Source: Prosthecobacter gellanilyticus (GTDB lineage Bacteria; Verrucomicrobiota; Verrucomicrobiia; Verrucomicrobiales; Verrucomicrobiaceae). From it: DNA of 64,000 nucleotides. The stretch lies in assembly GCF_007992435.1 (NCBI RefSeq), contig NZ_BKAG01000005.1, forward strand, positions 1-64,000, read 5' to 3'. The notes below the pieces were generated by a model. The model was not told the DNA's origin. It did not search any database and was given only the letters and a program-made list of their open reading frames with translations. Shown here piece after piece: positions 10,713 to 30,760 of the stretch. A program made the translations under genes and the position numbers. The stretch's first letter is position 1. Each line of letters begins with the position of its first letter.

Positions 10713-10744
10713 CCATGGGCGGGTTCTTTCGCGTCGGTTGACGA

Positions 10745-10827
10745 GAAGGGTTGGGCGGGAGCGAAGATCGTCAGGCCATGACTCATTCATGGGCCGAAGA
10801 TGCCGACACTCCACCGCCCAACCCTTC
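10745..10827. repeat. Nested inverted repeat between convergent genes
   Basis: A perfect 14-bp inverted repeat (GAAGGGTTGGGCGG at 10745-10758, CCGCCCAACCCTTC at 10814-10827) encloses a second imperfect hairpin GGCCATGA/TCATGGGCC (10774-10795). Weaker outer complementarity (TTCGCGT-type cores near 10738 and 10843) may extend it. It lies between the convergent ends of the oxidoreductase and PEP-CTERM genes. The architecture, an outer arm with an inner hairpin, resembles the 6749-6900 element, but the sequence differs. Confidence 0.75.
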
Positions 10828-10874
10828 ACGCTCGCATCCAACGCGAACTGTTCTGAAAAGGCTGGGTTGGCCGA

Positions 10875-11561: not shown

Positions 11562-11604
11562 AAAGATATTCATCTAAAAATGGTTAGGCGGAAAAGGTGG
11601 CGGA

Positions 11605-14600
11605 TCAGGGTGTCCAGGGCATCGGCATCACGTAGGTCGCCAGGCCGGTGCGCATCTTGTAGAGCGCGCCCGCGGTGGCCTTGAACATGAGCAGGTTGTT
11701 CTCGTTGACGAGGGAGGCATTGTTCAGCTCCGTCCACTGCTGCAGAGCGCCGGCGCTGAGCAGGAAGTGGTTGTAGTAGGCCATGGTCTGCGTGCTGGTG
11801 TAGCCCTTCCAGAAGAGGAGCTCGTCAGCCTTCGTCGGATCACGGCTGCCGATGAAGCCAGCGGCCGTGGTCATGCCGCGCATGGCCGGGCTCTGATCCA
11901 TCGGGTAGGCGCTGCCGATGAAGTTCGGCCCCTGGGCGAGCGGGCAGGCGAAGGCATTCGCGCGCACCATGCCATGCCACACGACTTGCTGCGGCACGCC
12001 TTTCGGATGTGTGAACCAGCCATCGCTCGGATCCACGATGAGCGAGCTGTAGTCCGTCAGTGTCGCATCATTGGTTAGCAGCCATTTCGGATTACCGCTG
12101 TTTGAGTACAACCAGTAGATTTTGAACTGGCCGGCGATGCGGTCGTAGAACAGCACACGGTCACCGGTGGAAGGATTGTTCGTGGCGGTGAACTGCGTGC
12201 GCGGGAACAGATCATTCAGCGTGTGGTGCTCACGGATCACCGCCTTGTCACCGGTGAGGTTCGCCGGGATGCTGGTCTGCGTGTTGCGCAGGTGGCTTGG
12301 CAGCAGCGCGATGGTGGTGGCCGTGCTCGCCGCTTCATTGATCTCAAATCGGTGGCCGGCGTTGTCACCGGAGAAGATTTCCACGAAGTACTCACGACCT
12401 GGAGCGAACTGGGCCACGATGCTGCTGCCACCGGCGCTGGTGGCCACATTCAGCGTGCTGCCCACCACCGCGTCGATGGTGCCGCAGAAGTTCTTGTCCT
12501 TCAGATACGGATAACCCGTCATGACGCACTCCGTGTTCAGGAGGCGGCGTGTCCAGCCAAACACCGGTGTGTTGGCACTGGCCTCAGGGATGTTGTCACC
12601 ATTTTCATCCAGCTCCAGATAGAGCCTGACGAAGCCCTGGGTCTGACCGGTGAAGAACGGATCGCTCTCCACATCAGCATAGGTCACGGTCTCCGTGCCA
12701 TCACCATTGTCGGTGACAGTCGGGATGATGGACAGCGCATTCCAGCCCGCAGGTGAATTCACCAGGGCACCGATGCCCATGAGCGCGTAGGTCACATCAT
12801 CCGGACCTCCGGAGATGCGGTTGAAGGACACATCCAGTTTGCCGGTGAGGGTGTTGCGCACGCCGCGGAAGGCCGGTGTGGTCTGCACGCCGGTGCCTGG
12901 GTTCAGGTTCAGCGCATACTCCACGAGATCCGTGTAGCAGTCACCGTCGCCGTTGGAGCCTGGGTTCGGACCGCTGCCGGTGATCTTCTTCCAGTAGTCA
13001 TACTTGCGGGGTGTGCGCAGGTGCAGCGGGATGTTGTTGTTGATCACGAAGGGATCACCCGAGGCCAGTGTGAACGTGAAGTAGTAGGGGTTCGCGCCAG
13101 CGCTGGAGCTGGTGAGATAGCCGGGATTCATCGGATCTTCACCGGCTCCGAGCGCATGCGGATCAGGGAAGCCTGTCGGATCGAAGCTCGCTCCGGCCAC
13201 CGGACGCGCTGGATCGATGATGTAACCCGTCGGCGCGGTATAACTAAGGGTGTAGTTACCCGGTGTGCCGTCCGTGATGAAGCTATACTGGCCGGTGCTG
13301 CCATCCTGCAGGATGGTGATGCCAGCGCCCGGAGGTCCGCTGATGAAGATGCTGCCACCAGAGATGATCTGACCGGTGACGACGTCATAGGCATAGCCGG
13401 CGGGATCCACCGCATCCAGGAAGTCATTGCCCAGGCTGTCACTGCCATTGAGCACGATGCGGATGAGGTTGTCATTGCTGCCCTGGGTGTCGGTGGTGCT
13501 GGTGGCGCCTTCAGGATCGATCTCCTGCACAAAGTAGGTTCCGTCTGGCAGGCCGGTGAAGGTGTAGGTGCCAAGCGCATCCGTCATGGTTTCGCGGATG
13601 AGCTGGTCGATCCCGTCATCATAGACACCATTGTCATTCGTGTCCGCATAGAGGCGGATGGCCACGGAAGGCACGGGCTGGTCACTGTCGCTCAGGCTGC
13701 CGTCGAGGTCATAGTCATCACGCACCTGGCCGCTGATGGTGCGCGTGCCGGAGATCGCGGCGAAGCCGAAGTCGATGGTGTTGTCCACCTCACCTGCGGC
13801 GAGCTCGATGACCGGGCTCAGCGTGGCTGCGGAGGCCGTGGCCTGGATGCCATTGTCGTCATTATCCTGCTGGTCGTCAGCCGTGTTGGTCGTCGTGGAG
13901 GACAGCGGGAATCCTGCAGGCGCTGTGGCGATGCGCAGGCGATACAGGCCAGGGGCCACGTTGGCGAAGCTGTAGAGACCGCCAGATGCCGTGGTGCTCG
14001 TCGTCGGCTGAATGCCGGCGGTGAGAGCATCGCTGTCGATGGAGGCACCTGTGCCGGTGAGCAGTTCCACGATCACCCCATTGATGCCGCTTTCGCTCGC
14101 ATCCTTGAAGCCGTCGTTGTCACTGTCATTCCAGACGAGGTTGCCGATGGTGACGGACTGCTCGTCGATGAAGTTGGCGTTCGTGACGGGTGTGCCGCCC
14201 GCCACGCTCATCGGACCCACTGTGTTGGAGGTGACGCTGAGATAGCCGGCTGGATCGGTTTCCACCACGCGATAGTTACCAGGAACCAGATTGCCGAAGC
14301 TGTAGGCACCGCTGGCATTGGTGGTCGTGGTCGTCGGCTGCACACCTGGGGTGATTGGATCACTGTCGATGTCATTGCCGTTGTTGTTCTTGAGGGTGAG
14401 GGTGACACCGCTGATCGGAGCATCGCCATCATCATCGTTGTCGATGTCAGCCAGCACGGTGCCGCTGATGCTGCCAAACTGCTCATCCACAAAGTTCATG
14501 CCGGTGGTGGGTGTGCCTGCGATCACGTTCACAGGGTTCAGCGTGTTCGGTGTGACACTGAGATAGCCCGCAGGATCGGTTTCCACCACGCTGTAGGTGC

Positions 14601-17600
14601 CTGGAAGCAGGTTGCTGAAGCTGTAGACACCGCTGGCATTGGTGGTCGTGTTGGTTGGCTGCACGCCGGGTGTGACTAGGTCGCTGTCGATGTCATTGCC
14701 ATTGCTGTCCTTCAGGGTGACGGTCACGCCGCTGATCGGAGCATCGCCATCATTGTCACTATCCGTGTCAGCCAGCACGCTGCCGCTGATGCTGCCGGGC
14801 TGCTCGTCCACGAAGTTGATGCCGGTGGTGGCGGTGCCTGCCACCACGTTCACAGGACTCACGGTGTTCGGTGTGACGCTGAAGTAGCCTGCGGGGTCTG
14901 TTTCCACCACACGGTAGGTGCCTGGAAGCAGATTGCTGAAGGTGTAGGTGCCGCTGGCGTTGGTCGTTCTGGTGGTTGGCTGCACGCCGGGAGTGACCAG
15001 GTCACTGTCGATGTCATTGCCGCTGCTATCCTTCAGGGTGACGGTCACACCGCTGATCGGCGTGTCGCCATCGTTATCATTGTCCGTGTCAGCCAGCACG
15101 CTGCCGCTGATGCTGCCGGGCTGTTCATCCACAAAGTTCACGCCGCTGGTCTCTGCACCAGCCACGACGCTCAGATTCGCCACGGTGTTCGGTGTGACGC
15201 TGAAGTAGCCTGCCGGGTCGGTCTCAACCACGCGATAGGTGCCAGGACGCAGACCCGTGAAGCTGTAGGCGCCGCTCGCATCCGTCGTCGCGGTCGTGGG
15301 CTGCACACCTGGGACGAAATCGTTGCTGTCGATGTCGTTACCGCTGCTGTCCTTGAGGGTCAGCACGACATTGCTGAGCGGCGTGTCGCCGTCGTCATCG
15401 TTGTCCGTGTCTCCGAGCACGCTGCCACTGATGCTGCCGGCCTGCTCGTCCACGAAATTGACTCCGTTGGTGGCGGTGCCTGCTGCCACGACCACAGGGC
15501 TGACCAGATTGGCCGTGACGCTGAAGTAGCCGGGCAGGTCCGTCTGGATCACACGGTAGGTGCCCGGGCGCAGACCGGTGAATGCATAAGCGCCGGTGCC
15601 GCTGGTCGTGGTGGTGGTGGGCTGCACGCCCGGGGTGACGTCATCACTGTCGATGTCATTGTCGTTGTCATCTCTCAGTGTGAGTGTGACACCGCTGATC
15701 GGATCCTCACCGATGTCATCGTTGTTCGTGTCAGCGAGCACGCTGCCGCTGATGCTGCCCGCTTCTTCATCGATGAAGTTCACATCGCTGGTCACGGTGC
15801 CTGCCGCGACTTCCACTGGAGACACGGTGTTCGGCGTGACACTGAAGTAGCCTGCTGGATCTGTCTCCACCACACGGTAGATGCCAGGAACCAGGCCGGT
15901 GAAGCTGTAGCCACCGCTGGCGTTGGTGGTCGTGGTGGTAGGCTGCACGCCTGGGGTGACGTCGTCGCTGTCGATGTCATCACCATTGCTGTCTTTCAGC
16001 GTCAGCGTGATGCTGCTGAGGGGATCATCGCCGATGTCGTCATTGTCAGCGTCAGCGAGCACGGTGCCCGTGATGCTGCCAGCCTGTTCATCCACGAAAC
16101 TCACATCCGAAGTCGTGGTACCGGCCACCACCAGCACAGGAGTGACGGTGTTCGGGGTGACGCTGAAGTAGCCCGCGAGGTCGGTTTCGACCACGCGATA
16201 ACTTCCCGGCACGAGGCCGCTGAAGGTGTAGACACCGCTGGCATCCGTTGTTGTGGTCGTTGGCTGCACACCGGGAGTGATGTCGTCACTGTCGATGTCA
16301 TTGCCGCTGCTGTCCTTAAGCGTCAGCGTGACACCGCTGAGCGGTGCATCACCATCGTCGTCATTGTCCGCGTCAGCCAGCACGGTGCCTGTGATGCTTC
16401 CGGCTTCCTCATCCACAAAGTTGACGTCATTGGTCGGCATGCCGGCCAGCACGATCACAGGTGCGAGTGTGTTTGGCGTGACACTGAAGTAACCGGCCGG
16501 GTCTGTCTCCACCACACGATAGTTGCCAGGAGTCAGGTTGCTGAAGCTGTAGGCGCCGCTGGCATTGGTGGTGGTCGTCGTAGGCTGCACACCGGCGGTG
16601 AGAGGATCGCTGTCGATGTCATCGCCATTGCTGTCCTTCAGCGTGATCGTGACACCGCTGATCGGATCATCACCGAGGTCATCATTGTCGTTGTCGGCGA
16701 GCACGGTGCCGTTGATGCCGGCGGTCTGCTCATCCACAAAGTCCGCGCCCGTGGTGGCGGCGCCGGCCACGACGGTGGCAGGGCCCACGGTGTTTGGAGT
16801 GACGCTCACATAGCCTGCCAGATCGGTTTCAACGATGAGGTAGGAGCCTGGGGCCACATTCGTGAAGGTGTAAGCACCGCTGGCATTGGTGGTCGTTGTC
16901 GTCGGCTGGACACCGGCGGTGAGAGGATCGCTGTCGATGTCGTCACCATTCAGATCCTTCAGGGTCAGGGTGACACCGTTGATCGGTGCGTCGCCATCGT
17001 CATCATTGTCCGTGTCAGCCATGACGGTGCCGGAGATGCTGCCGGGCTCTTCATCTACAAAGTTCACACCGGTGGTGGTCGTGCCTGCCGCGACGTTTAC
17101 GGACGACACTGTGTTGGACGTGACACTGAAGTAGCCAGCAGGATCGGTTTCAACGACACGATAGGTGCCCGGGCGAAGGCCTGCGAAGAGGTAAGCGCCT
17201 GTGCCGTTGGTCAGAGCGATCGTCGGCTGGATGCCTGCGGCAAAAGGATTGCTGTCGATGTCGTCACCGTTGCTGTCCTTCAGCGTCAGCGTCACTCCGC
17301 TGAGCGGATCATCACCGAGGTCATCATTGTCAGTGTCGGCGAGCACGGTGCCGGTGATGCTGCCAGCCTCTTCATCTACGTAGTTCACATCCGCCGTCGG
17401 TGTGCCTGCCGCGACGAGCACGGGAGAGATCGTGTTGGGAGTGACACTGTAGTAGCCTGCGGGATCTGTCTCGATCACACGATAGCTGCCAGGAAGCAGG
17501 TTGGTGAAGCTATACACACCGCTGGCATTGGTGGTGGTCGTCGTCGGCTGCACGCCGGCAGTGAGAGGATCACTGTCGATGTCGTCACCATTGCTGTCCT

Positions 17601-20600
17601 TGAGCGTGATCGTGACGCCGCTGATTGGATCATCGCCGATGTCATCATTGTCGGTGTCCGCGAGCACGGTGCCGGTGATGCTGCCAGCCTCTTCATCCAC
17701 GTAGTTCACATCCGTCGTCGGTGTGCCTGCCGCGACGAGCACAGGGGAGATCGTGTTGGGGGTGACACTGAAGTAACCTGCAGGATCGGTTTCCACCACG
17801 CGATAGCTGCCTGGAGGCAGGCCTGCGAAGGTGTAGTCACCGCTGGCATTCGTGATGGCCGTGGTCGGCTGCACCCCAGGGGTGATGAGATCGCTGTCGA
17901 TGTCGTTTCCGTTGCTGTCCTTCAGCGTGACGGTCACGCCACTGATCGGATCATCGCCCATGTCGTTGTTGTCCGTGTCAGCGAGCACGGTGCCGCTGAT
18001 GCTGCCAGGCTCTTCGTCGATGAAATTGACACCGCTGGTCGCTGCACCGGAGGTGACGACCACAGGCGAGATCGTGTTGGGCGTGATGCTGAAGTAGCCC
18101 GCCAGATCTGTCTGCACGACACGATAGCTGCCCGGGGACAGGTTCGCGAAGCTGTAGACACCGTTGCTGTCCGTGGTGGTGGTCGTGGGCTGCACGCCTG
18201 GGGTGATGTCATCGCTGTCGATGTCGTTTCCATTGCTGTCCTGCAGTGTGAGCGTGACGCCGCTGAGCGGATCGTCACCGATGTCGTCATTGTCGATGTC
18301 AGCGAGCACGGTGCCCGTGATGCCGCTGAGCTGCTCATCCACGAAGTCCACACCGCTGGTGACTGTGGCTGCCACCACATCTACCGGGAAGACGGTGTTT
18401 GGAGTGATGCTGAGGTAACCGGCCGGATCAGTCTCGACCACACGATAGCTGCCTGGACGCAGACCGGTGAAGGTGTAGACGCCGCTGGCGTTCGTGGTCA
18501 CCTCAGTTGGCTGGATGCCGGAGGTGAATGGATCGCCGTCGATGTCGCTGCCGAGGCTGTCTTTGAGCGTCAGCGTGACGCCGCTGATGGGATCATCTCC
18601 ATCATCATCATTGTCCGTGTCAGCGAGGACGGTGCCGGTGATGCTGCCTTCCTGCTCATCCACGAAATTCACGTCCGAGGTATCCATGCCAGCGACCACG
18701 ATCACTGGGAAGCTCACGTTCGTGGTCACGCTGAAGTAGCCTGGCAGGTCCGTCTCCTCCACCATGTAGGTGCCAGGGGCCAGGTTGACGAAGGTGTAGA
18801 AGATATAGAAGCCATTGCTGTCCGTGGTGGTCGCTGTCGGCTGGACGCCAGGGGTGACGAGATCGCTGTCGATGTCGTCACCATTGCTGTCCTTCAGCGT
18901 GAGGGTGACACCGCTGATCGGCGTGTCGCCGATGTCATCGTTGTCCAGGTCAGCGAGCACCGTGCCGCTGATGCTGCCGGGCTGTTCGTCCACGAAGCTC
19001 ACATCGTTCGTCGGTGTGCCAGCGGCCACCACCACAGGCGAGACCGTGTTGGGCGAGACGCTGAAGTAGCCTGCAGGATCGGTTTCCACCACGCGGTAGG
19101 TGCCTGGACGCAGGTTTGCGAAGGTGTAAGCACCGCTGGCGTTCGTGGTGGTTGTGGTCGGCTGGGTGCCGGGGGTGACGAGGTCGCTGTCGATATCATG
19201 ACCAAGGCTGTCTTTCAGCGTCAGGGTCACACCGCTGATTGGATCATCACCCATGTCATCATTGTCTGTGTCAGCGAGCACGCTGCCGCTGATGCTGCCT
19301 GCTTGCTCATCGATGAAGTTCACACCGCTGGTCGCCTGGCCTGCGGTGACAGCGACAGGTGCAACCGTGTTGGAGGTCACGCTGAAGTAGCTGGCGAGGT
19401 CGGTTTCCACCACGCCGTAGCTGCCGGGGGAAAGATTGGCGAAGGTGTAGACACCGCTGCCATTGGTCGTCGCTGCGGTTGGCTGGATACCGGGGGTGAC
19501 GAGGTCGCTGTCGATGTCGTCACCGTTGCTGTCCTTCAGCGTGAGGGTGACACCGCTGATCGGATCATCGCCGATGTCGTCATCGTCCGCGTCAGCAAGC
19601 ACGGTGCCGGTGATGCTGCCAGCCTGCTCATCGATGAAGCTCACATTGTTTGTCGGTGTGCCAGCTGCCACGACGACGGGGGACACCGTGTTTGGCGAGA
19701 CACTGAAGTAACCGGCAGGATCTGTCTCAACGACGCGATACGTGCCCGGACGCAGGCCTGCGAAGGTGTAGACGCCGCTGGCATCCGTGGTGGTCGTGGT
19801 GGGCTGCACGCCAGGAGTGATGAGGTCGCTGTCGATGTCAGCACCTGTGCTGTCCTTCAGGGTCAGTGTGATGCCGCTGAGCGGTGAGTCGCCATCGTCG
19901 TCATTGTCGGTGTCGGCGAGCACGGTGCCGCTGATGCTGCCAGCCTCTTCATCGATGAAGTTCACGCCGCTGGTCACCACACCTGCGGTGACAGCGACAG
20001 GTGCAACCGTGTTGGAGGTCACACTGAAGTAGCCCGCCAGGTCGGTTTCCACCACGCGGTAGGTGCCTGGAGTCAGACCTGCGAAGCTATAGATGCCAGC
20101 GGCATTCGTGATGGCCGTGGTGGGCTGCACGCCTGGGGCGATCGGATCACTGTCGATATCGTTCCCACTGCTATTTTTCAGCGTGAGGGTGACCCCGCTG
20201 ATCGGATCATCGCCATCGTCATCATTGTCAGTATCGGCCAGCACGGTGCCGGTGATGCCGCTGAGCTGCTCATCGACGAAGCTCACATTGTTCGTCGGTG
20301 TGCCAGCTGCCACGACCACAGGGTTCACTGTGTTTGGCGTGATGCTGACGTAGCCGGCAGGATCCGTTTCAACGACACGATAGGTGCCCGGACGCAGGCC
20401 TGCGAAGGTGTAGACGCCGCTGGCATCCGTGGTGGTGGTCGTGGGCTGCACGCCTGGGGCGATCGGATCACTGTCGATGTCAGCACCTGTGCTGTCTTTC
20501 AGGGTCAGCGTGATGCCGCTGAGCGGTGAGTCGCCATCGTCGTCATTGTCGGTGTCGGCGAGCACGGTGCCGCTGATGCTGCCGGCCTCTTCATCGATGA

Positions 20601-23600
20601 AGTTCACGCCGCTGGTCACCACACCTGCGGTGACGACCACGGGTGAAACGGTGTTGGTCGTGACGCTGAAGTAGCCCGCCAGGTCGGTTTCCACCACGCG
20701 GTAGGTGCCTGGAGTCAGACCTGCGAAGCTGTAGACACCGCTGGCATTCGTGATGGCCGTGGTGGGCTGCACCCCTGGGGCGCTCGGATCACTGTCGATG
20801 TCGTTGCCGCTGCTATTCTTCAGCGTGAGGGTGACACCGCTGATCGGATCATCGCCATCGTCATCATTGTCAGTGTCAGCCAGCACGGTGCCGGTGATGC
20901 CGCTGAGCTGCTCATCGACGAAGCTCACATTGTTTGTCGGTGTGCCTGCTGCCACGACCACAGGGTTCACTGTGTTTGGCGTGATGCTGACGTAGCCGGC
21001 AGGGTCTGTTTCGACGACACGATAGGTGCCTGGACGCAGGCCTGCGAAGGTGTAGACGCCGCTGGCATCGGTGGTGGTGGTCGTGGGCTGCACGCCAGGA
21101 GTGACGAGATCACTGTCGATGTCTGCACCTGTGCTGTCCTTCAGTGTGAGGGTGATGCCGCTGAGAGGTGAGTCACCGGTGTCGTTATTGTCTGTGTCAG
21201 CGAGCACGCTGCCGCTGATGCTGCCAGCCGCTTCGTCGATGAAGTTCACGTTCGCCGTTGTGGTGCCCGCGACGACGTTCACCGGAGACACGGTGTTGGA
21301 GGTCACGCTGAAGTAGCCCGCGAGATCGGTTTCCACGACGCGGTAGCTGCCGGGAACCAGGTTCGTGAAGCTGTAGGCGCCGCTGCCATTCGTGGTGGTG
21401 GTCGTGGGCTGCACGCCAGCAGCGCCAGCGTCGCTGTCGATATCATTGCCGCTGCTGTCCTTCAGGGTCAGCGTGACACCACTGATCGGCGTGTCGCCAT
21501 CGTCATCGTTGTCTGCATCGGCCAGGACGGTGCCACTGATGCTGCCAGCCTGCTCGTCGATGAAGTTCACATTGTTAGTCACTGTGCCTGCCACCACGTT
21601 CACGGAGGAGACGGTATTGGAAGTGACACTGAAGTAACCTGCGGGGTCGGTTTCCACGACGCGGTAAGTGCCCGGGCGCAGACCAGCGAAGGTGTAGACA
21701 CCGCTGGCGTTCGTGGTGGTTGTCGTCGGCTGGATGCTGGCGGTGCCAGCGTCGCTGTCGATATCGTTGCCGCTGCTGTCCTTCAGGGTCAGCGTGACAC
21801 CGCTGAGCGGTGAGTCGCCATCGTCATCGTTGTCCGCATCGGCCAGGACAGTGCCGGTGATGCTGCCCGCTTGTTCATCCACGAAGTCGACCCCGCTGGT
21901 CACAGCCGCTGCGGTGACGAGCACAGGTGAGACGGTGTCCGGGCTGACGCTGAAGTAGCCAGGAAGATCTGTCTCGATGACGCGATAGCTGCCTGGAGGC
22001 ACATCGGTGAAAGTGTATGCACCGCTGGCGTTGGTGATCGCGGTGGTGGGCTGCACGCCGGGGGTGATGGCATCACTGTCGATGTCATTGCCGCTGCTGT
22101 CCTTGAGGGTCAGCGTGACGCCGCTCAGAGGTGCGTCGCCGGTGTTGTCGTTGTCAGTATCCGCCAGGACAGTGCCGGTGATATTGCCAGTGTGCTCATC
22201 CACAAAGTTGACGCCGCTGGTGGTGTTGCCTGCGGTCACCAGCACTGGGGAAACGGTGTTGGAGGTGACACTCAGGTAACCTGCTGGATCGGTCTCGACC
22301 ACGCGGTAGCTGCCCGGAGGCACATTGGTGAAGGAATAGAAGCCACCCACGTTTGTTGTCGTGGTGGTGGGCTGCACGCCGGGAGTGCCGGAGTTGCTGT
22401 CGATGTCATTGCCACTGCTGTCTTTGAGGGTCAGCGTGACGCCATTGATGCCGTTGTCACCGATGTCGTCGTTGTTGGTGTCAGCACGCACAGTGCCGGC
22501 GATGCTGCCCGTCTGCTCGTCGACGAAATTCACATTCGAGGGTCCTGCACCCGCGGTGACCAGCACTGGAGAAACCGTGTTAGGTGTGAGGCTGAGATAG
22601 CCGGGGAGGTCGGTCTCGACGACGCGATAACTGCCTGGAGGCACACCGGTGAAGGTGTATACACCGCTGGCATTCGTGATGGCCGTGGTGGGCTGGATGC
22701 CGGGAGTGATGGCATCGCTATCAATGTCGTTGCCGCTGCTGTCCTTGAGAGTGACGGTCACGCCGCTAACCGGCGTATCGCCCGTGTCATTGTTGTCCGT
22801 GTCAGCCAGGACAGTGCCGCTGATGCCGCCGGTCTGCTCGTCCACGAAGTTCACATTGGCCGTGGCTGCGCCAGCACTCACCACCACTCCAGACACGGTG
22901 TTGGACGTGATGCTGAGGTAACCGGCAGGATCGGTCTCGACCACGCGGTAGGTGCCGGGATGCAGATTGAGGAAGCTGTAAGCACCCGAGGCGTTCGTGG
23001 TGGTGGTCGTGGGCTGCACGCCTGGAGTGCCGGAGTCGCTGTCGATGTCGTTGCCGCTGCTGTCCTGGAGAGTCAGGGTGACTCCGTTGATGCCGACATC
23101 ACCGGTGTCATTGTTATCGGTGTCAGCGCGGACGAAGCCCGTGATGCTGCCAGCCTGCTCATCCACGAAGTTGATGTTGCTGGTCGTGCCACCGGCATTC
23201 ACCGCCACGGAGGAAACAGTGTTGCTCGTGACACTGAAGTAACCTGCGAGGTCGGTTTCCACGACGCGGTAAGTGCCAGGAACCAGATTGCCGAAGGTGT
23301 AGGCGCCGCTGGCATTCGTGGTGGTGGTTGTGGGCTGCACGCCAGCTGTGCCGGAATCGCTGTCGATGTCATTACCGCTGCTGTCTTTGAGCGTGAGTGT
23401 GACGCCGTTGAGGCCCACATCGCCTGTGTCATCATTGTTGGTGTCAGCGCGGACGAAGCCCGTGATGCTGCCTGCCTGTTCATCCACGAAGTTGATGTTG
23501 CTGGTCGCAGCTCCGGCATTCACCACCACAGGCGAGACGGTGTTCGTGGTGACGCTGAAGTAGCCCGCAGGATCTGTTTCCACCACGCGGTAGGTGCCTG

Positions 23601-26600
23601 GCAGCAGATTGCTGAAGGAATAGACGCCGCTGGCATTCGTGGTGGTGGTCGTGGGCTGGATGCCCGCGAGACCTGAGTTGCTATCGATGTCGTTGCCACT
23701 GCTGTTTTTCAGCGTGAGCGTGACACCACTGATCGGTGAATCGCCGGTGTCATTGTTGTCGGTGTCAGCGCGCACCGAGCCGGTGATGCTGCCTGCCTGT
23801 TCATCGACGAAGTTGATGTTGCTGGTCGCAGCTCCGGCATTCACCGCCACGGCGGACACGGTGTTAGGCGTCACACTGAAGTAGCCTGCAGGATCTGTTT
23901 CAACCACGCGGTAGGTGCCTGGCAGCAGGTTGCCGAAGGTGTAGATGCCGCTGGCGTTGGTGGTCGTGGTTGTTGGCTGCACTCCCGCCGTGCCAGAGTC
24001 ACTATCGATGTCATTCCCACTGCTGTCCTTCAGGGTCAGGGTGACACCACTGATCGGCGAATCGCCAGTATCATTGTTATCAGTATCTGCGAGTACGGTG
24101 CCGGTGATGCTGCCCGCCTGCTCGTCCACGAAGTTGATGTTGCTGGTCGTGGCGCCTGCATTCACCACCACCGGAGACACGGTGTTCGTGGTGACACTAA
24201 AGTAGCCCGCAGGATCCGTCTCAACGACGCGGTAGGTGCCAGGGCGCACGTTGGTGAAGGTGTAGACACCACTGCCGTTCGTGGTCGTGATGGTCGGCTG
24301 CACTCCGGCGGTTCCGGCATCGCTGTCGATGTCATTGCCGCTGCTGTCCTTGAGGGTCAGTGTGACACCGCTGATGCCGACATCGCCGGTGTCATTGTTG
24401 TCAGTGTCAGCGCGCACAGTGCCGGCAATGATGCCCGCCTGCTCGTCCACGAAGTTGACATTGCTGGTCGTCGAGCCAGCGACGACATTCACCGGATTCA
24501 CGGTGTTTGTGGTGACACTGAAATAGCCTGCGAGATCGGTTTCGACGACCTGATAGGTGCCGTGCACGACACCGGAGAAAGTATAAACACCGCTGCCGTT
24601 GGTGGTCGTCGTGGTGGGCTGGATGCCCGCGAGACCGGGATTGCTGTCGATGTCATTGCCGCTGCTGTCCTTGAGGGTCAGTGTGACACCGCTGATGCCC
24701 ACATCGCCCGTGTCATTGTTGTCGGTGTCTGCCAAAACAGTGCCTGTGATGCTGCCGAGACGGCGGAAGCCATCATCACCCGCAGGTGTGGTCACACCGC
24801 TGGCGGCGGTGACATTGTTTGGATCCGTGCCGGCGGTCTGCTGATAGCCTGTGGTGAAGACTGCGGTGAACTGCGCATCGGTCTGGTCCACATTCACATT
24901 GGTCGTGCCAGGAGGCACGGAGGCCGTCCAGTCACCGGAGGCATTCGTCACCACGGTCTGGAGCACGCCGAAGCTGTTGGTGATGATGACATCGATGTTC
25001 GCCAGGGCGGTGTCGCTGCCGCCGAAGCTGCCGTTGCCATCCACATCATGATAAACCTTGCCACCCACCGTGCCCATGAGCACATCCAGGAAGTCACGAC
25101 CCGTCGTGCTGCTGCCGGCGGCAGCAGAGACTGGAATCATGTTGTTGTTAGGCGCGGCCACGTCCGCCGTGGAATACCAGCCGAAGAGGTCACGCTCGAC
25201 GACGACATAGTTTCCGGCGCTGAGTCCTGCGAAGGCGTAGGTGCCGTCCGCGGCAGTGAGCGTCGATTGCACCACGGCCTCGCCTGGATCTGCCACACCG
25301 TTGTTGTTGGAATCTTCGATGAGATCGACCGGCACGTTTTCAATGCCCACCTCACCGGCAGTCACCGCCGCATTGGCGTTGGCATCATTCCACACCTTGC
25401 CGGAGATGCTGGCGTAGCTGGCGGAGGGTGTGAGGTAGTCGAAGAAGTTGTTGTTCGCGAAGGTCGTGAGCGTGCTCACATTCAGCGCGATGCGGTTGTC
25501 ATTCGCTCCCTGCGTATCGCCGCTGCTGGAGTAGCCGGGCGGCTGGGATTCGACAATGACATAGGTGCCCGTGGCGAGGTTCGGGAACTCATAGAGACCA
25601 TCCGCGGCCGTGGTGACGATGGCCACAAGCGTGCCGTCAGCCGGGTTGCCATCCGCATTTGGATCGGTGTAGAGGCTGACCGTCACTCCCGCGAAGGCGC
25701 TGTCACCAGCATTGAAGGTGCCGCTCTGATCCGGGTCGATGTAGACACGGCCGGTGATCTTTGCTGCAACGAGTGTGATGGTGGTGCTGCTGGTGGCCGC
25801 AGGCACGGCATCACCGTTCGCGTCCACGCTGTAGTTCGCGGAGGCATTGTTCGTCGCAGGCGCGGCAGCTCCCGTGGCCTTCAACGTCACATCGATCGCT
25901 GTCGCGGTGGCTCCTGCGGCGAGGCTGCCTGCTCCTGTGATGTCATTCCAAAGCAGAGTGCCATTACCGACGGCATCAGGAGTGGTCGTTGCGGACACAA
26001 AGCTGAAGTCAGTGCCTGAGAAGAGATCCTCAACCGGCAGCGTGGTGATGGCGGTGGTGCCGGTGTTCTGCACGGAGATGCGGAAGACCACATTGGTGTT
26101 GATGTTGGCCGGGCCGGGGTTTGGGCTGATCAGCGTCTTGGTGATGGTATGTGCCGGACGCGTGACGGTCACGTTCGCAAAGCTGCTGCCCGTGACGCCA
26201 CCACCTGCGTTGGCACTGGCGGTATTGGTGACGGTGGCGCCTGCAGAGAGGGCGGTGAAGTTCAGCGTGATGGTGATGCTCTGGCCGGATGTCAGCGGGC
26301 CGACATTCGTCCAGCTCACCGTTCCGCTGCCAGTCGAGCTCGGCGTGAGGCTGGCGGAGACGAATGTCAGATTTGCAGCCGGGAAGGTGTCCGTCAGCGC
26401 GATGGTGCTGAGCGTGGTGTTGCCGGTGTTGGCGACCTGCACGGTGTATTGCAAAGCTTCACCGATCACCGCGATGCCATCTGCCGGCGCCACCAGGGTC
26501 TTCCTCACGGACACGGCCGGTGCCACGTTCGGGATGGTGGCCGTGTCGTTGCTGGTGTCCAAGGAGTCGGTCGGATCCACATAGGTCGCCGTGAGCAGTT

Positions 26601-29600
26601 CACCGAGCTGGGCACGCAGGGTGCCGTTGTTGTTACCAGCGCCGAGAGTGGTGCTGGCGGGGATGGAGCCGACAAAGATGCCCGTGTTCACACCGGTCTC
26701 CGTCAGAGTGACCACCTCGCTGTCACCGCTGGCGCTGGTGATGGTGACGGTCACCGTTTCGGCGACGGTGGCGTTCGTGTTTTGGTCGAGATCGGTGACA
26801 CGCACATAGACGGTCTCCCCGCCTGCGTAGGTGGAGGTGCGCGGGCCGTTCGAGCCGGTGGTGAAATGCGTGGTGCTCGGTGTTCCGAGGTCGAGCATGG
26901 TCACGTTCACCGTGGTGGCGCGTGTGGCATTGATGCCTTCCGTGCCTTCATTGGCGGTCACGGCGATGTTGTAGGTGCCGGATGTGGCACCCACGGACCA
27001 GGCATACTCATAGGTCTTCGTGCCCGTGGTGGTAGCGACGACATTCGCCCCATTCAGTGTGGCGCTGACATTGCCGCTGCCGCCGGGACCGGTGATGGCC
27101 AGGCCCATGCTGGTGATGTCCGCATTGCCGAAGGGATCGCTCGCTGTGCTGCGGACGTAGACGGTCGTGCCGCTGGTGAGGCCGGTGATCAGATTTCCCG
27201 CAGGATACGGCGCATCATAGACACCCAGCGTGTTCACATCGATGACCGTGGTGGTTGGCAGCGTGATCTTCGAAGGAGTGGTGGTGCTGTCGAACCGGAC
27301 GGTGAAGGTGACACCGGACTGCGCGGTGGTGATGTCCATCGTCACATAGTCGCTTGCCGCAAAGTTGGTTGCGCTGGCCAGCGCGCCGAAGTTGAGGGTC
27401 AGGATGCCGTTGCCCGTGCTGGTGCTGGCGCTCGCACTGGTGCTGGTGGCAAAGGTGGTCGTGTTCTTCTTCAGCACGGCCGTGATGCTCGGTGTGGAGG
27501 GCATGGTGCCAGTAGCCACATTGTAGTGGGCGGTGACCACCGGCGTGGCTCCCACCGGCAGGGTGAAGGTGGAGGCAAAGGTCGGTGCCTGGGTGAAGGT
27601 GGCCGTCGTTGTGCCGCTGGGAGCTGCCTTGAGGGCCACGCCACCAATCGCCGCCAGAAGCGCATTCCCCGAGGTTCCTGAGCCGAACGAAATGTTGGTC
27701 TGTGTCGCCACGCCGGTCTTGGACTGGGCCGCGCCCGATGTCTGGCCGGTGTAGGGTGTGGAGGCCCAGAGAGAGGTGCCGCCGCCTGTGATGGTGTAGT
27801 TGGCAGCATTGCGTCCTGCCACGACACCGAAGATCAGGTCTCCGGCAGCGCTCGGCACGTTGACGTTCGGGCTTCCCGTTAGGGTGGAGGTGCTGGCGAA
27901 GGCGCCGAGAGGTGTGCCCGTGAGGTCCACGCCTGCATAGGTGACGGCACCCACGATCGAGCCTTGATTGAGCGCCGAGCTGAAGGTCACCACCACGTTG
28001 TTGGCGCCGGTCGGCGGATTGTAGAGACGGTAGATGTAGATGCGACCGTCTGGTGAGGTGGAGTCATCCACGTTCTGCGTGCCCACCAGTGTCATCGCCT
28101 GGGCGGCGTAGGTGACGCCGGTGACGGTCTCATCATCCTGGTCGCGGTAAGAGATTCCCACCATGAGGATGCGGTTGCTGCCCGTGGTGCCAGAATTGTG
28201 GCTCAGCGTGTGGCTGGTGGGAGTCTGGCTGCTGGAGTTGGACGTGCTCGCTGCGCCGACCACGGTGATGGTTCCGGCCGTCTGGCCGAGCGTGGCCGTG
28301 CTGGCGGTGGTCGCGTCACTCGTCGCCACAGGATCCACACGATCCAGCGCCTGGCTCGGGTCACTGAGGTAGAGGAACTTGTTCTGCGTCGGCACCGCGA
28401 TCACTGCGGTGCCGGTGCAGGTCTCGTTAAACTCGGGATCGGTGTAGACGAAGGACAGGCTGTTTCCAGGAGCGACGAGCAGTGTGCCGTCCATCTGCGA
28501 GGAGCCTGTGGTCGTGGAAGTGGTTAGGCCGGTGGTGTTGCGGAAGATGCCGCTGGTCGCCGTGGTTTCCACCAGGGTGACGAACTCCGCATCGCCATTG
28601 CTGGTGTTGCGGACCACGACGGTGATGCTTTCCACGGCGCCCGTGTTGTTGTTCGCATCAGGATCTGTCATCGTGCCATAGATGAGCGCACCTGCCGTGT
28701 AGGACGGCTGCACGGTTCCCGTGGAATTGGTGAACTGCGCGGCGCAGGCCGTGGAGCCTGCGGGCGGTGGCACCACCACGTTGGCCGTGGACACGAGGTT
28801 GTAGTTCGAGTTGCTCACCGTGTTGGCGATCGAACCCGCGGCGTTGACAGTACAACGATAGGTGAAGACGGTCATGCCGCCGCGCAGGATGATGGGGATG
28901 GTGTAGCCGCTTTCATCCAGCGGGAAGGCGGTGCCAGAGGTGGCATCTGGAATGGCCACACCATCACGCTTCGTGCTGCCTGTCACGTAGCCCAGGGAGG
29001 CGTTCAGCGGGTCAAGCACCAGCAGGTTACCGAGAGGCAGGAGGCCTTTGTTGTCCACATCGATGCGATACTCGATGGTGTCACCAATGGTCAGGCCGGG
29101 GTTTCCTGCATCGACCGCGATGGTGAAGGATTTAATGAGGGTCGGGACTGGGAACGGCAGCACTGTCGTGCCGCAGTCCAGATAGGGAAGCGCAGGACCG
29201 GCGACCGCTGGATCCTGGCCCCAGGCGGCTGTGATGGTCACGCCATCCAGCGTGTAGAGGCGCATGGCGGTCTGGTCCTTGTCCGGATCATTCACGCGGC
29301 GTGACTCCATGGTGCCGATGTCCAGATGAGCGTCATACTTGCCGTTCTTCGGGTCGGTGAGAGGGCCTGCCTTGTCACCATTGTAGTCCACATACACACG
29401 GGTGGCGGAGGTGGGGGTGACCCACACGGGGCTGCCGTTTTGTGTGAGGTTCTCGCTGCCAGGTCCCCAGCCTACCACGGCCTCCGTGGTCAGGTTGTCA
29501 GACGGCACCATGGAAAAGCCCCAGTCGTGGACGTTGTTGGAGCTCGGGTTGGCACCTACGGTGACGATGCCGAAGAAGTCCGCGCCATTCGAGCTGACAA

Positions 29601-30672
29601 ACTTGGCGCCGGAATTCTGCGGGATCTGGTACTGGGTCACGCCATTGGCCGCCACGGAGAAGCTCGCGTTCCCGACCGATGTTGTCACGTTGATGGTTAG
29701 GGCGGAAGCGTTCGGGTTGTAGATGAAGGCATAGGCCTGGTGGCCGTTCGCTGCGGTGCCCACGGGTGAGTAGGTCACATCACTCCACTGGTCGCGCGGA
29801 TAGAGCGTGAAGCGGCGGCTCTCATAGCGCGCGCCAATATCGCCCGTGATCAGATGCACCTGCACGGGCTTGCCCGCGTTCACGGTGGCGCCTTTCTTGA
29901 TGCCGCCGTTCATGAGGTAGGATTCACCGCGGTTGAGGGTGATGTTGATGGCTGCACCTGCGCCTGAGCCGTCCGCATCGATCGCCACCGTTGTGGCATC
30001 ATCACGAGCCATCACAAAAAGGCCCACGTATTCAAACATGGAGCTCGAGCTCACATCATCACCCACGGGGGCGATGTACTGCGTGCCGTAGTCCATGGTC
30101 GGAAGCACTTCATTGGCACCGCAAAGCACGGTGCCTGGGGTCGTGGCCCAGCTGGCGCGGGACACCACCAGCGCCTTGGTGCCGCCGAAACGGTCACGCC
30201 CGTCATAGAGACGGTTCACCGGGTTGCGCGGCAGCGGGATCTGATTCCTCAGCACGATGACGGAACCCGTCGTGAAAGTGGCCGGATCATTCGCATAGCC
30301 AGGAGGCACGCCGTTGGCATCGTTGCCGTCACCCCAGATCTGCGTGGTGGACTGGGTGGGATTGTTCAGATCGACCTCATAACCGTCTTCCCAATGGTCG
30401 TAATGAATCACAGTTCCCGCGCCGGTGGCCACGATGGAGACCACGGATTCCAGGGTATTTCCCACGATGCCTGCGGCTGGCTCGACGCTCACCAGGGCGG
30501 TCTTCACCTGCACTTCAGGCAGCGGCACATAGAACTCATGGATGATATTGGCCGCCCAGGAAGGCGTGGCCAAGGCCGCGAGCAGAGGCAACATGAGCTT
30601 CCAAAGGATGGAGCGGTGATGAGGCGCGCACGTAGAGCCCTTGCCAGAGGTTGATGGAAATGTGGAGTTCAT
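11605..30672 (-). CDS. Giant secreted repeat protein with 33 SdrD_B/CnaB-like repeats (~6,355 aa)
   Basis: One uninterrupted frame encodes a protein of about 6,355 residues. The start at 30672 is preferred because the extension to 30741/30750 uses AT-rich codons (ATA, GTA, TTA) unlike the gene, although GGAAGG lies 9 bases before the 30741 ATG. Order: signal peptide (ends PSWA-A); an ~500-residue N-terminal module vaguely like IgGFc-binding domains; several DUF11-like repeats (VRKTLVAPADG, ITKTLISPNPG); three SdrD_B-like domains; 33 tandem 107-residue repeats (bases 24753-14152); two further SdrD_B-like domains; and a ~500-residue C-terminal region perhaps of the TIGR02597 type. Each repeat carries an acidic D-x-D-N-D-D-x-G-D loop suited to Ca2+ binding and a PGTYRVVETDPAGY strand. 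No anchor (PEP-CTERM, LPXTG, TM) is visible at the C-terminus. A role as adhesin or surface filament is inferred. Confidence 0.9.
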   Translation of the reverse strand: MNSTFPSTSGKGSTCAPHHRSILWKLMLPLLAALATPSWAANIIHEFYVPLPEVQVKTALVSVEPAAGIVGNTLESVVSIVATGAGTVIHYDHWEDGYEVDLNNPTQSTTQIWGDGNDANGVPPGYANDPATFTTGSVIVLRNQIPLPRNPVNRLYDGRDRFGGTKALVVSRASWATTPGTVLCGANEVLPTMDYGTQYIAPVGDDVSSSSMFEYVGLFVMARDDATTVAIDADGSGAGAAINITLNRGESYLMNGGIKKGATVNAGKPVQVHLITGDIGARYESRRFTLYPRDQWSDVTYSPVGTAANGHQAYAFIYNPNASALTINVTTSVGNASFSVAANGVTQYQIPQNSGAKFVSSNGADFFGIVTVGANPSSNNVHDWGFSMVPSDNLTTEAVVGWGPGSENLTQNGSPVWVTPTSATRVYVDYNGDKAGPLTDPKNGKYDAHLDIGTMESRRVNDPDKDQTAMRLYTLDGVTITAAWGQDPAVAGPALPYLDCGTTVLPFPVPTLIKSFTIAVDAGNPGLTIGDTIEYRIDVDNKGLLPLGNLLVLDPLNASLGYVTGSTKRDGVAIPDATSGTAFPLDESGYTIPIILRGGMTVFTYRCTVNAAGSIANTVSNSNYNLVSTANVVVPPPAGSTACAAQFTNSTGTVQPSYTAGALIYGTMTDPDANNNTGAVESITVVVRNTSNGDAEFVTLVETTATSGIFRNTTGLTTSTTTGSSQMDGTLLVAPGNSLSFVYTDPEFNETCTGTAVIAVPTQNKFLYLSDPSQALDRVDPVATSDATTASTATLGQTAGTITVVGAASTSNSSSQTPTSHTLSHNSGTTGSNRILMVGISYRDQDDETVTGVTYAAQAMTLVGTQNVDDSTSPDGRIYIYRLYNPPTGANNVVVTFSSALNQGSIVGAVTYAGVDLTGTPLGAFASTSTLTGSPNVNVPSAAGDLIFGVVAGRNAANYTITGGGTSLWASTPYTGQTSGAAQSKTGVATQTNISFGSGTSGNALLAAIGGVALKAAPSGTTTATFTQAPTFASTFTLPVGATPVVTAHYNVATGTMPSTPSITAVLKKNTTTFATSTSASASTSTGNGILTLNFGALASATNFAASDYVTMDITTAQSGVTFTVRFDSTTTPSKITLPTTTVIDVNTLGVYDAPYPAGNLITGLTSGTTVYVRSTASDPFGNADITSMGLAITGPGGSGNVSATLNGANVVATTTGTKTYEYAWSVGATSGTYNIAVTANEGTEGINATRATTVNVTMLDLGTPSTTHFTTGSNGPRTSTYAGGETVYVRVTDLDQNTNATVAETVTVTITSASGDSEVVTLTETGVNTGIFVGSIPASTTLGAGNNNGTLRAQLGELLTATYVDPTDSLDTSNDTATIPNVAPAVSVRKTLVAPADGIAVIGEALQYTVQVANTGNTTLSTIALTDTFPAANLTFVSASLTPSSTGSGTVSWTNVGPLTSGQSITITLNFTALSAGATVTNTASANAGGGVTGSSFANVTVTRPAHTITKTLISPNPGPANINTNVVFRISVQNTGTTAITTLPVEDLFSGTDFSFVSATTTPDAVGNGTLLWNDITGAGSLAAGATATAIDVTLKATGAAAPATNNASANYSVDANGDAVPAATSSTTITLVAAKITGRVYIDPDQSGTFNAGDSAFAGVTVSLYTDPNADGNPADGTLVAIVTTAADGLYEFPNLATGTYVIVESQPPGYSSSGDTQGANDNRIALNVSTLTTFANNNFFDYLTPSASYASISGKVWNDANANAAVTAGEVGIENVPVDLIEDSNNNGVADPGEAVVQSTLTAADGTYAFAGLSAGNYVVVERDLFGWYSTADVAAPNNNMIPVSAAAGSSTTGRDFLDVLMGTVGGKVYHDVDGNGSFGGSDTALANIDVIITNSFGVLQTVVTNASGDWTASVPPGTTNVNVDQTDAQFTAVFTTGYQQTAGTDPNNVTAASGVTTPAGDDGFRRLGSITGTVLADTDNNDTGDVGISGVTLTLKDSSGNDIDSNPGLAGIQPTTTTTNGSGVYTFSGVVHGTYQVVETDLAGYFSVTTNTVNPVNVVAGSTTSNVNFVDEQAGIIAGTVRADTDNNDTGDVGISGVTLTLKDSSGNDIDSDAGTAGVQPTITTTNGSGVYTFTNVRPGTYRVVETDPAGYFSVTTNTVSPVVVNAGATTSNINFVDEQAGSITGTVLADTDNNDTGDSPISGVTLTLKDSSGNDIDSDSGTAGVQPTTTTTNASGIYTFGNLLPGTYRVVETDPAGYFSVTPNTVSAVAVNAGAATSNINFVDEQAGSITGSVRADTDNNDTGDSPISGVTLTLKNSSGNDIDSNSGLAGIQPTTTTTNASGVYSFSNLLPGTYRVVETDPAGYFSVTTNTVSPVVVNAGAATSNINFVDEQAGSITGFVRADTNNDDTGDVGLNGVTLTLKDSSGNDIDSDSGTAGVQPTTTTTNASGAYTFGNLVPGTYRVVETDLAGYFSVTSNTVSSVAVNAGGTTSNINFVDEQAGSITGFVRADTDNNDTGDVGINGVTLTLQDSSGNDIDSDSGTPGVQPTTTTTNASGAYSFLNLHPGTYRVVETDPAGYLSITSNTVSGVVVSAGAATANVNFVDEQTGGISGTVLADTDNNDTGDTPVSGVTVTLKDSSGNDIDSDAITPGIQPTTAITNASGVYTFTGVPPGSYRVVETDLPGYLSLTPNTVSPVLVTAGAGPSNVNFVDEQTGSIAGTVRADTNNDDIGDNGINGVTLTLKDSSGNDIDSNSGTPGVQPTTTTTNVGGFYSFTNVPPGSYRVVETDPAGYLSVTSNTVSPVLVTAGNTTSGVNFVDEHTGNITGTVLADTDNDNTGDAPLSGVTLTLKDSSGNDIDSDAITPGVQPTTAITNASGAYTFTDVPPGSYRVIETDLPGYFSVSPDTVSPVLVTAAAVTSGVDFVDEQAGSITGTVLADADNDDDGDSPLSGVTLTLKDSSGNDIDSDAGTASIQPTTTTTNASGVYTFAGLRPGTYRVVETDPAGYFSVTSNTVSSVNVVAGTVTNNVNFIDEQAGSISGTVLADADNDDDGDTPISGVTLTLKDSSGNDIDSDAGAAGVQPTTTTTNGSGAYSFTNLVPGSYRVVETDLAGYFSVTSNTVSPVNVVAGTTTANVNFIDEAAGSISGSVLADTDNNDTGDSPLSGITLTLKDSTGADIDSDLVTPGVQPTTTTTDASGVYTFAGLRPGTYRVVETDPAGYVSITPNTVNPVVVAAGTPTNNVSFVDEQLSGITGTVLADTDNDDDGDDPISGVTLTLKNSSGNDIDSDPSAPGVQPTTAITNASGVYSFAGLTPGTYRVVETDLAGYFSVTTNTVSPVVVTAGVVTSGVNFIDEEAGSISGTVLADTDNDDDGDSPLSGITLTLKDSTGADIDSDPIAPGVQPTTTTTDASGVYTFAGLRPGTYRVVETDPAGYVSITPNTVNPVVVAAGTPTNNVSFVDEQLSGITGTVLADTDNDDDGDDPISGVTLTLKNSSGNDIDSDPIAPGVQPTTAITNAAGIYSFAGLTPGTYRVVETDLAGYFSVTSNTVAPVAVTAGVVTSGVNFIDEEAGSISGTVLADTDNDDDGDSPLSGITLTLKDSTGADIDSDLITPGVQPTTTTTDASGVYTFAGLRPGTYRVVETDPAGYFSVSPNTVSPVVVAAGTPTNNVSFIDEQAGSITGTVLADADDDDIGDDPISGVTLTLKDSNGDDIDSDLVTPGIQPTAATTNGSGVYTFANLSPGSYGVVETDLASYFSVTSNTVAPVAVTAGQATSGVNFIDEQAGSISGSVLADTDNDDMGDDPISGVTLTLKDSLGHDIDSDLVTPGTQPTTTTTNASGAYTFANLRPGTYRVVETDPAGYFSVSPNTVSPVVVAAGTPTNDVSFVDEQPGSISGTVLADLDNDDIGDTPISGVTLTLKDSNGDDIDSDLVTPGVQPTATTTDSNGFYIFYTFVNLAPGTYMVEETDLPGYFSVTTNVSFPVIVVAGMDTSDVNFVDEQEGSITGTVLADTDNDDDGDDPISGVTLTLKDSLGSDIDGDPFTSGIQPTEVTTNASGVYTFTGLRPGSYRVVETDPAGYLSITPNTVFPVDVVAATVTSGVDFVDEQLSGITGTVLADIDNDDIGDDPLSGVTLTLQDSNGNDIDSDDITPGVQPTTTTTDSNGVYSFANLSPGSYRVVQTDLAGYFSITPNTISPVVVTSGAATSGVNFIDEEPGSISGTVLADTDNNDMGDDPISGVTVTLKDSNGNDIDSDLITPGVQPTTAITNASGDYTFAGLPPGSYRVVETDPAGYFSVTPNTISPVLVAAGTPTTDVNYVDEEAGSITGTVLADTDNDDIGDDPISGVTITLKDSNGDDIDSDPLTAGVQPTTTTTNASGVYSFTNLLPGSYRVIETDPAGYYSVTPNTISPVLVAAGTPTADVNYVDEEAGSITGTVLADTDNDDLGDDPLSGVTLTLKDSNGDDIDSNPFAAGIQPTIALTNGTGAYLFAGLRPGTYRVVETDPAGYFSVTSNTVSSVNVAAGTTTTGVNFVDEEPGSISGTVMADTDNDDDGDAPINGVTLTLKDLNGDDIDSDPLTAGVQPTTTTTNASGAYTFTNVAPGSYLIVETDLAGYVSVTPNTVGPATVVAGAATTGADFVDEQTAGINGTVLADNDNDDLGDDPISGVTITLKDSNGDDIDSDPLTAGVQPTTTTTNASGAYSFSNLTPGNYRVVETDPAGYFSVTPNTLAPVIVLAGMPTNDVNFVDEEAGSITGTVLADADNDDDGDAPLSGVTLTLKDSSGNDIDSDDITPGVQPTTTTTDASGVYTFSGLVPGSYRVVETDLAGYFSVTPNTVTPVLVVAGTTTSDVSFVDEQAGSITGTVLADADNDDIGDDPLSSITLTLKDSNGDDIDSDDVTPGVQPTTTTTNASGGYSFTGLVPGIYRVVETDPAGYFSVTPNTVSPVEVAAGTVTSDVNFIDEEAGSISGSVLADTNNDDIGEDPISGVTLTLRDDNDNDIDSDDVTPGVQPTTTTTSGTGAYAFTGLRPGTYRVIQTDLPGYFSVTANLVSPVVVAAGTATNGVNFVDEQAGSISGSVLGDTDNDDDGDTPLSNVVLTLKDSSGNDIDSNDFVPGVQPTTATTDASGAYSFTGLRPGTYRVVETDPAGYFSVTPNTVANLSVVAGAETSGVNFVDEQPGSISGSVLADTDNDNDGDTPISGVTVTLKDSSGNDIDSDLVTPGVQPTTRTTNASGTYTFSNLLPGTYRVVETDPAGYFSVTPNTVSPVNVVAGTATTGINFVDEQPGSISGSVLADTDSDNDGDAPISGVTVTLKDSNGNDIDSDLVTPGVQPTNTTTNASGVYSFSNLLPGTYSVVETDPAGYLSVTPNTLNPVNVIAGTPTTGMNFVDEQFGSISGTVLADIDNDDDGDAPISGVTLTLKNNNGNDIDSDPITPGVQPTTTTTNASGAYSFGNLVPGNYRVVETDPAGYLSVTSNTVGPMSVAGGTPVTNANFIDEQSVTIGNLVWNDSDNDGFKDASESGINGVIVELLTGTGASIDSDALTAGIQPTTSTTASGGLYSFANVAPGLYRLRIATAPAGFPLSSTTTNTADDQQDNDDNGIQATASAATLSPVIELAAGEVDNTIDFGFAAISGTRTISGQVRDDYDLDGSLSDSDQPVPSVAIRLYADTNDNGVYDDGIDQLIRETMTDALGTYTFTGLPDGTYFVQEIDPEGATSTTDTQGSNDNLIRIVLNGSDSLGNDFLDAVDPAGYAYDVVTGQIISGGSIFISGPPGAGITILQDGSTGQYSFITDGTPGNYTLSYTAPTGYIIDPARPVAGASFDPTGFPDPHALGAGEDPMNPGYLTSSSAGANPYYFTFTLASGDPFVINNNIPLHLRTPRKYDYWKKITGSGPNPGSNGDGDCYTDLVEYALNLNPGTGVQTTPAFRGVRNTLTGKLDVSFNRISGGPDDVTYALMGIGALVNSPAGWNALSIIPTVTDNGDGTETVTYADVESDPFFTGQTQGFVRLYLELDENGDNIPEASANTPVFGWTRRLLNTECVMTGYPYLKDKNFCGTIDAVVGSTLNVATSAGGSSIVAQFAPGREYFVEIFSGDNAGHRFEINEAASTATTIALLPSHLRNTQTSIPANLTGDKAVIREHHTLNDLFPRTQFTATNNPSTGDRVLFYDRIAGQFKIYWLYSNSGNPKWLLTNDATLTDYSSLIVDPSDGWFTHPKGVPQQVVWHGMVRANAFACPLAQGPNFIGSAYPMDQSPAMRGMTTAAGFIGSRDPTKADELLFWKGYTSTQTMAYYNHFLLSAGALQQWTELNNASLVNENNLLMFKATAGALYKMRTGLATYVMPMPWTP
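14152..24753 (-). repeat. 33 tandem 321-bp repeats inside the giant gene
   Basis: The array is 10,602 bases: 33 copies of 321 bases (107 codons) plus one 9-base insertion (extra Tyr-Ile-Phe-type residues in copy 19, near 18,800). Copy 1 begins at the Ser of SITGTVLAD (24753) and copy 33 ends at 14152 before TIGNLVW. The reading frame is kept throughout. Copies 12/14/16 and 13/15 are nearly identical in alternation (offset 642 bases, about 19,940-21,220), showing recent duplication of a two-repeat block; other copies are more diverged. The whole array is part of the coding sequence. Confidence 0.95.
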
Positions 30673-30760
30673 CGCTTTTACAATTTTTACAAATAACTCA
30701 CAAAGGATATGATAATCAACACAAACTATAATTTCTGTCATAGCATTCATCCTTCCATCG
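30673..30760 (-). promoter_or_regulatory. AT-rich probable promoter/leader of the giant gene
   Basis: This ~85-base segment is far richer in A and T than anything around it and lies directly upstream of the preferred start of the giant gene. On the minus strand it contains ATGACA, TTATAG and TATCAT elements resembling -35 and -10 hexamers, but no pair with ideal spacing could be fixed, so no boxes are called. It also contains an alternative start with a GGAAGG ribosome-binding site (ATG at 30741), so part of it could instead be translated. Confidence 0.4.

Follow-up and report, generated by a model that had tools for sequence, protein, structure and literature searches.

A giant repeat protein of Prosthecobacter gellanilyticus and its small PEP-CTERM neighbour: a possible surface fibre and its anchor

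The window analysed here is a 64,000-nucleotide stretch of the Prosthecobacter gellanilyticus genome (contig NZ_BKAG01000005.1, positions 1 to 64,000), in which a giant gene on the minus strand (11605..30672) encodes 6,355 residues with an array of 33 tandem repeats. The next gene on that strand (10875..11573), which we call the partner, starts 31 bp past the giant's stop codon, and its 232-residue product has a PEP-CTERM end. Judging from sequence, we tentatively suggest, at close to an even chance, that the two work as a pair, the giant as an exported surface fibre and the partner as the protein that holds it to the cell. The original prediction for this locus had left open how the giant stays at the surface, and that question now gains a lead from a C-terminal domain shared among giants and from the PEP-CTERM partner directly downstream.

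A shared C-terminal domain and its partner gene

The last approximately 440 residues of the giant (11608..12999), recognized by profile and homologue comparison and proposed here as a docking or sorting domain, are also found at the ends of five more giant frames in this genome (12,122, 5,824, 4,100, 2,903 and 2,317 codons); a further match on contig C15 is weak (E 9e-5). TIGR02597 aligns with the domain over 286 residues (43.6 bits, E 1.8e-11), which is below its curated cut-off of 50 bits, so that the domain is related to this family but not filed as a member, and it differs from TIGR02597 in being placed at the ends of giants. Among 160 proteins collected in two database searches, a biased set, 74 match the C-terminal piece, and the match reaches the last residue in 52 of the best 60 of these. 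A search of 56 genomes, the window's own included, revealed at least 101 frames matching the domain at 176 bits or more, with a median length of 2,996 codons; 81 exceed 2,000 codons. The predicted structure of the domain is confident, and no strong match to this model was found among solved structures. The 12,122-codon frame (G000:C21, about 34550-70920) is twice as long as the window giant and combines the same C-terminal domain with many SdrD_B matches, and 14 frames with the domain in the 56 genomes exceed 8,500 codons. PEP-CTERM matches over cut-off also fall within three long frames of this genome (G000:C39:11397-11468, C48:24840-24911 and C46:26916-26987, in frames of 8,017, 4,858 and 4,302 codons), and some of its giants may carry a sorting tail of their own.

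The partner was characterized by profile and homologue comparison. Its C-terminus scores 16.9 bits against TIGR02595 (cut-off 16; 21.1 bits in the genome search), and the match exceeds that cut-off in five of the seven partner-family members tested. PF07589 stays below its cut-off in the window partner (13.6 versus 20.7 bits) and reaches it in one of the seven, and the partner's own domain matches no Pfam family. Two exosortases are encoded in the genome, as judged by PF09721 matches (E 7e-40 and 8e-38).

We searched the 56 genomes for the partner family with alignment A4, taking matches of at least 100 bits as strong and those within 1.5 kb of the end of a C-terminal-domain frame as adjacent. 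The family has 56 matches, of which 33 are adjacent to such a frame, all on the same strand; for strong homologues the count is 27 of 37, again on the same strand. Seven of these 37 are seeds of the model and had been picked by looking beside giants, and with the seeds left out 21 of 30 are adjacent. Five of the ten non-adjacent strong matches (in G004, G010, G011, G030 and G008) abut a long frame cut by the end of the contig or stretch, which may or may not carry the C-terminal domain. From the giants' side, 25 of the 81 frames over 2,000 codons have an adjacent partner, 13 upstream, 9 downstream and 3 on both sides, while in P0002 and P0150 partner and giant share one reading frame. Of the 56 genomes, 25 hold both, 5 only the C-terminal domain and 26 neither; the partner never occurs without the domain.

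In a phylum-wide set of 59 genomes, the C-terminal domain (over 200 bits) and the partner family (E ≤ 1e-6) were each found only in the window's own genome and in G069, a distant member of the phylum. The two matches lie 60 bp apart on one strand in G069, whose locus played no role in building either model and thus provides a check from outside the order. The G069 partner has a PEP-CTERM-like end by eye, the G069 giant likewise ends in PWTP, and exosortases are present in that genome too. A second, longer partner homologue follows the first there (L053:697-1689, minus strand, 330 codons), with no PEP-CTERM end seen by eye; the idea that it is a fusion to the C-terminal domain was not supported (E 0.27). 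Frames of 308-373 codons with a partial partner match occur in G049. General conservation of gene order was rejected as the cause of the partner linkage, because none of ten further neighbours from the window comes back at the relatives' loci, save for a weak OmpA-type match (30%) in L026; the flanks compared differ in length, some being only 1.5 kb.

The giant gene and the history of its repeats

An open reading frame scan of the window showed the frame 11605..30750 to be open for 6,381 codons, bearing out the predicted single frame of about 19 kb, on the minus strand from ATG 30672 (codon 27) to the stop at 11605. An upstream ATG at 30750 is also in frame. The sequence favours ATG 30672 as the likelier start, because a promoter-like site lies just upstream (30741-30712, minus strand; a consensus match only, with two others on the plus strand) and a signal-peptide-like segment directly follows (residues 27-66, 30553..30672; by eye from the translation). 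Residue numbers are counted from ATG 30750. The head that comes next (about residues 67-720, 28591..30552) is conserved at 51-69% identity in five other genomes of the 56. No Pfam family exceeds its cut-off in the head except DUF11 at its end, and an impression from reading that the head is IgG-Fc-binding-like found no Pfam support even at E 10. The DUF11-like and SdrD_B-like domains predicted on the flanks of the array were recovered as Pfam matches: the best of three DUF11 matches covers residues 1427-1515 (26206..26472), an SdrD_B domain covers residues 1664-1752 (25495..25761) with more up to the array, and an SdrD_B domain of the usual form, supported by profile and by SdrD chain 10ps (E 2.8e-9), stands right after it (residues 5535-5664, 13759..14148). 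In a protein database the window giant is entered with 5,655 residues, its start placed at internal residue 727 (taken as Met), and the database gene call of P0124, a giant from a close relative, begins within its array; for giants of this kind, lengths given in databases may fall short.

The array occupies residues 2001-5534 (14149..24750), as delimited by Tandem Repeats Finder, motif phasing and profile. It is the only array that Tandem Repeats Finder reported in the window (14218-24757; 32.8 copies of 321 bp, 75% matches). Motif phasing gave 33 in-phase copies, as predicted, and the perfect phase claimed for them is almost exact: 32 copies have 107 residues and copy 19 has 110. The profile comparison proposed with the original prediction assigned the repeats to SdrD_B (PF17210), which matches all 33 at E ≤ 4.4e-5; 31 exceed the curated cut-off, two of these only together with their neighbours, and 2 fall below it. 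SpaA (PF17802) fits a repeat pair somewhat better than SdrD_B (2.8e-22 versus 1.5e-18), and the repeat fold matches SdrD B1-B2. The predicted acidic loop is present in every copy (D/N/E/S at positions 8, 10, 12 and 13, G at 15, D/E at 16). It lies in an A-B loop three residues shorter than that of SdrD B2, from which the repeat also differs by an 11-residue segment inserted further on; Ca2+ binding at this loop, as at an EF-hand-like site, is plausible. In CnaB domains, the lysine of the intramolecular isopeptide bond is placed in the first strand. None of the 33 copies has a lysine in repeat residues 1-8, the first strand, and on this ground we rejected an isopeptide-bonded stalk.

The copies are on average 71.5% identical pairwise as protein (range 62-94%) and 73% as DNA (66-92%). 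At the three codon positions identity is 0.80, 0.84 and 0.55, third positions being far more diverged, and the medians between copies are 0.20 for dN, 1.05 for dS and 0.18 for dN/dS (525 of 528 pairs). These values point to an array that is old and under purifying selection. Copy-to-copy identities reveal recent two-copy duplications in copies 12-16. Over a large part of the array, repeat position 73 is Leu and Pro by turns, with 25 of 32 adjacent pairs differing (p 2e-4 by shuffling). We did not adopt this as a structural two-domain period, as by eye it is not kept in P0124 and part of it would arise from the recent two-copy duplications.

The giant's head is present in 6 of the 56 genomes, own included, and the bodies behind it differ. 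The orthologues in G015, which belongs to the same genus as the window genome, and in G024 hold a single copy of the repeat, set among other domains of SdrD_B type; in G050 there is one copy-like module; the frames in G007 and G004 carry different bodies, and the G004 frame is truncated by the contig end. The single copy in two same-genus relatives contrasts with at least 24 full copies and the end of another in the closer relative P0124, which is 90% identical to the window giant over the C-terminal piece. Ten of the 24 P0124 copies find their best matches in rising order along the window array (copies 5, 6, 8, 13-16, 18, 21 and 23 to window copies 10, 11, 13, 18-21, 24, 30 and 31), and the remainder are ambiguous. 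The ordered matches include the unusual 110-residue copy. The long array thus likely predates the split of P0124 and the window species, and it likely grew from one module.

Elsewhere in the window, 598-6732 holds three consecutive genes that by eye resemble those for a planctomycete-type cytochrome protein and two sulfatases. Upstream of the giant, and likewise on the minus strand, is a gene that by eye resembles one for a serine/threonine kinase (31990-34098); it is not found beside the giant at the relatives' loci.

A fibre held in trans and its alternatives

In the mechanism we propose, giant and partner would both be exported by Sec, the PEP-CTERM tail of the partner would be processed by one of the two exosortases, and the C-terminal domain of the giant would dock on the partner, so that the sorting signal would be supplied in trans. 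How far out the head is displayed would depend on how many domains the stalk has; at the 3-4 nm per domain given in the original prediction, 33 domains would extend about 100-130 nm. The stalk likely grew by tandem duplication of one ancestral module, partly in two-module steps, and has been kept by purifying selection. Exosortase sorting in trans of this kind, in which Verrucomicrobiota giants of about 2,000 to 8,000 residues without a sorting tail of their own are attached through a C-terminal docking domain to a small neighbouring PEP-CTERM protein, is possible but, in our judgement, falls somewhat short of probable. The predicted fibre is supported in its repeats and fold, while its Ca2+ binding is plausible only.

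Several observations weigh against a fibre held by its neighbour. An adjacent partner is lacking beside 56 of the 81 frames over 2,000 codons, beside all 14 frames over 8,500 codons and beside four of the six C-terminal-domain giants of the window's own genome, two having one; apparently, the domain can do without an adjacent partner, and such giants may use a partner elsewhere or another route. Conversely, 23 of the 56 partner-family matches were not scored as adjacent. Strong partner genes without a giant neighbour occur in G026, G015:C3 and G028:C122, the one in G049:C5 has a C-terminal-domain frame 1.6 kb off on the opposite strand, and the one in G020 lies at a contig end. Related genomes are not independent in these counts, and the p-value for the co-occurrence of domain and partner by genome therefore serves as a guide only. 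The PEP-CTERM match of the partner is weak, narrowly exceeding the one model and missing the other, and Pfam detected no known adhesive domain in the head or C-terminus of the giant. The docking itself is inferred. In the available portions of two accounts (PMC9850573, PMC12188702), PEP-CTERM proteins are given a surface or matrix role, with an unexplained route across the outer membrane.

The main rival is that the C-terminal domain itself directs sorting, or export across the outer membrane, by an undescribed route, with the partner an accessory of some giants and not needed for anchoring. The placing of the domain at the very end of frames that vary widely in length agrees with this, as do the giants lacking an adjacent partner, the very longest included, and the weak resemblance of its model to solved structures. 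We nevertheless regard it as unlikely: at about 440 residues the domain is large for such a signal, parts of it are matched by frames of about 350 codons, as expected for a working domain, and the rival does not account for why the partner is linked to the domain, shares frames with it and occurs in the same genomes. Alternatively, giant and partner might be co-transcribed for the same extracellular matrix or timing without contact, the giant being released or held otherwise. Such co-transcription would suit the 31-bp spacing on one strand, the failure to find any promoter-like or terminator-like site at 9900-11700, and the description, in the available part of PMC9850573, of PEP-CTERM proteins as parts of the extracellular polymeric substance in floc-forming bacteria. 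The partner can precede or follow the giant, flanks it both ways in three cases and is joined to it in one reading frame in two. Such placements suit a physical pair better than common regulation alone, and we consider co-transcription without contact quite improbable.

Least probable by far is that the 33-copy array is an assembly error or belongs to a decaying gene without product. The genome is in 137 contigs with no long reads seen, and the database gene calls of the window giant and P0124 start inside the frame. The 6,381 codons, however, run without a stop, and any exact repeat in the gene is shorter than 75 nt, so that short reads could span the array and its collapse or inflation by them is unlikely. 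Together with the low dN/dS, this makes both a short-read artefact and decay improbable, and the comparable array in P0124, with its ordered matches, further disfavours an artefact.

Known systems and meaning of the pair

Giant repeat adhesins and SdrD_B stalks are already known, and a 33-fold amplification alone adds another member. The repeats share with the B domains of SdrD their fold, profile family, acidic A-B loop and tandem arrangement in an exported protein, but there are 33 copies of one type here and five B domains in Staphylococcus aureus SdrD (PMC13174682, in its available part), and in place of the SdrD wall anchor a PEP-CTERM end is borne by the partner. According to the portions available, MpAFP of Marinomonas has about 120 copies of a 104-residue Ca2+-dependent Ig-like repeat (PMC4083281) and a Mobiluncus adhesin of 7,651 residues has 51 Ig-like domains (PMC10619420). 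Both resemble the window giant in a very long stalk built from repeats of a single beta-sandwich domain some 100 residues in size. The window giant differs from both in its domain family, its C-terminal domain and its PEP-CTERM partner; the copies of MpAFP are described as identical, unlike those of the window. The tandem stalk domains agree with the definition of fibrillar adhesin-like proteins (PMC8286594), which also asks for one or more known adhesive domains, none of which Pfam detected in the head and C-terminus. As in Periscope Proteins (PMC8201768, available part), stalk length follows tandem-domain number, with 1, at least 24 and 33 among the relatives. Periscope Proteins have highly identical repeats and vary between strains, whereas the copies here are old and diverged (mean DNA identity 0.73, best pair 0.92) and species are compared. 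The pair resembles PEP-CTERM/exosortase proteins, as described in the parts available of PMC12188702 and PMC9850573, in the PEP-CTERM end of the partner and the exosortases of the genome, and differs in that the sorting tail sits on a small protein beside a giant without one.

A literature search, with supplements and preprint servers outside its scope, found, among the papers listed, no description of a PEP-CTERM partner tied to C-terminal-domain giants, no mention of TIGR02597 and no work combining giant proteins, SdrD and Verrucomicrobia; the giant/PEP-CTERM pair is likewise not described in the available portions of PMC11573180 and PMC12057145. Of the six bacterial groups that are richest in huge proteins, four belong to the PVC superphylum (PMC11573180, available part). 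Function and cell attachment are open for most PVC huge proteins, and the link between partner and giant offers a concrete handle, as the 232-residue partner and the domain of about 440 residues can both be produced and their binding tested. The locus shows a stalk going from one module in relatives to 33, with the copies under selection. If the two bind, exosortase sorting would extend to giant proteins that lack a sorting tail.
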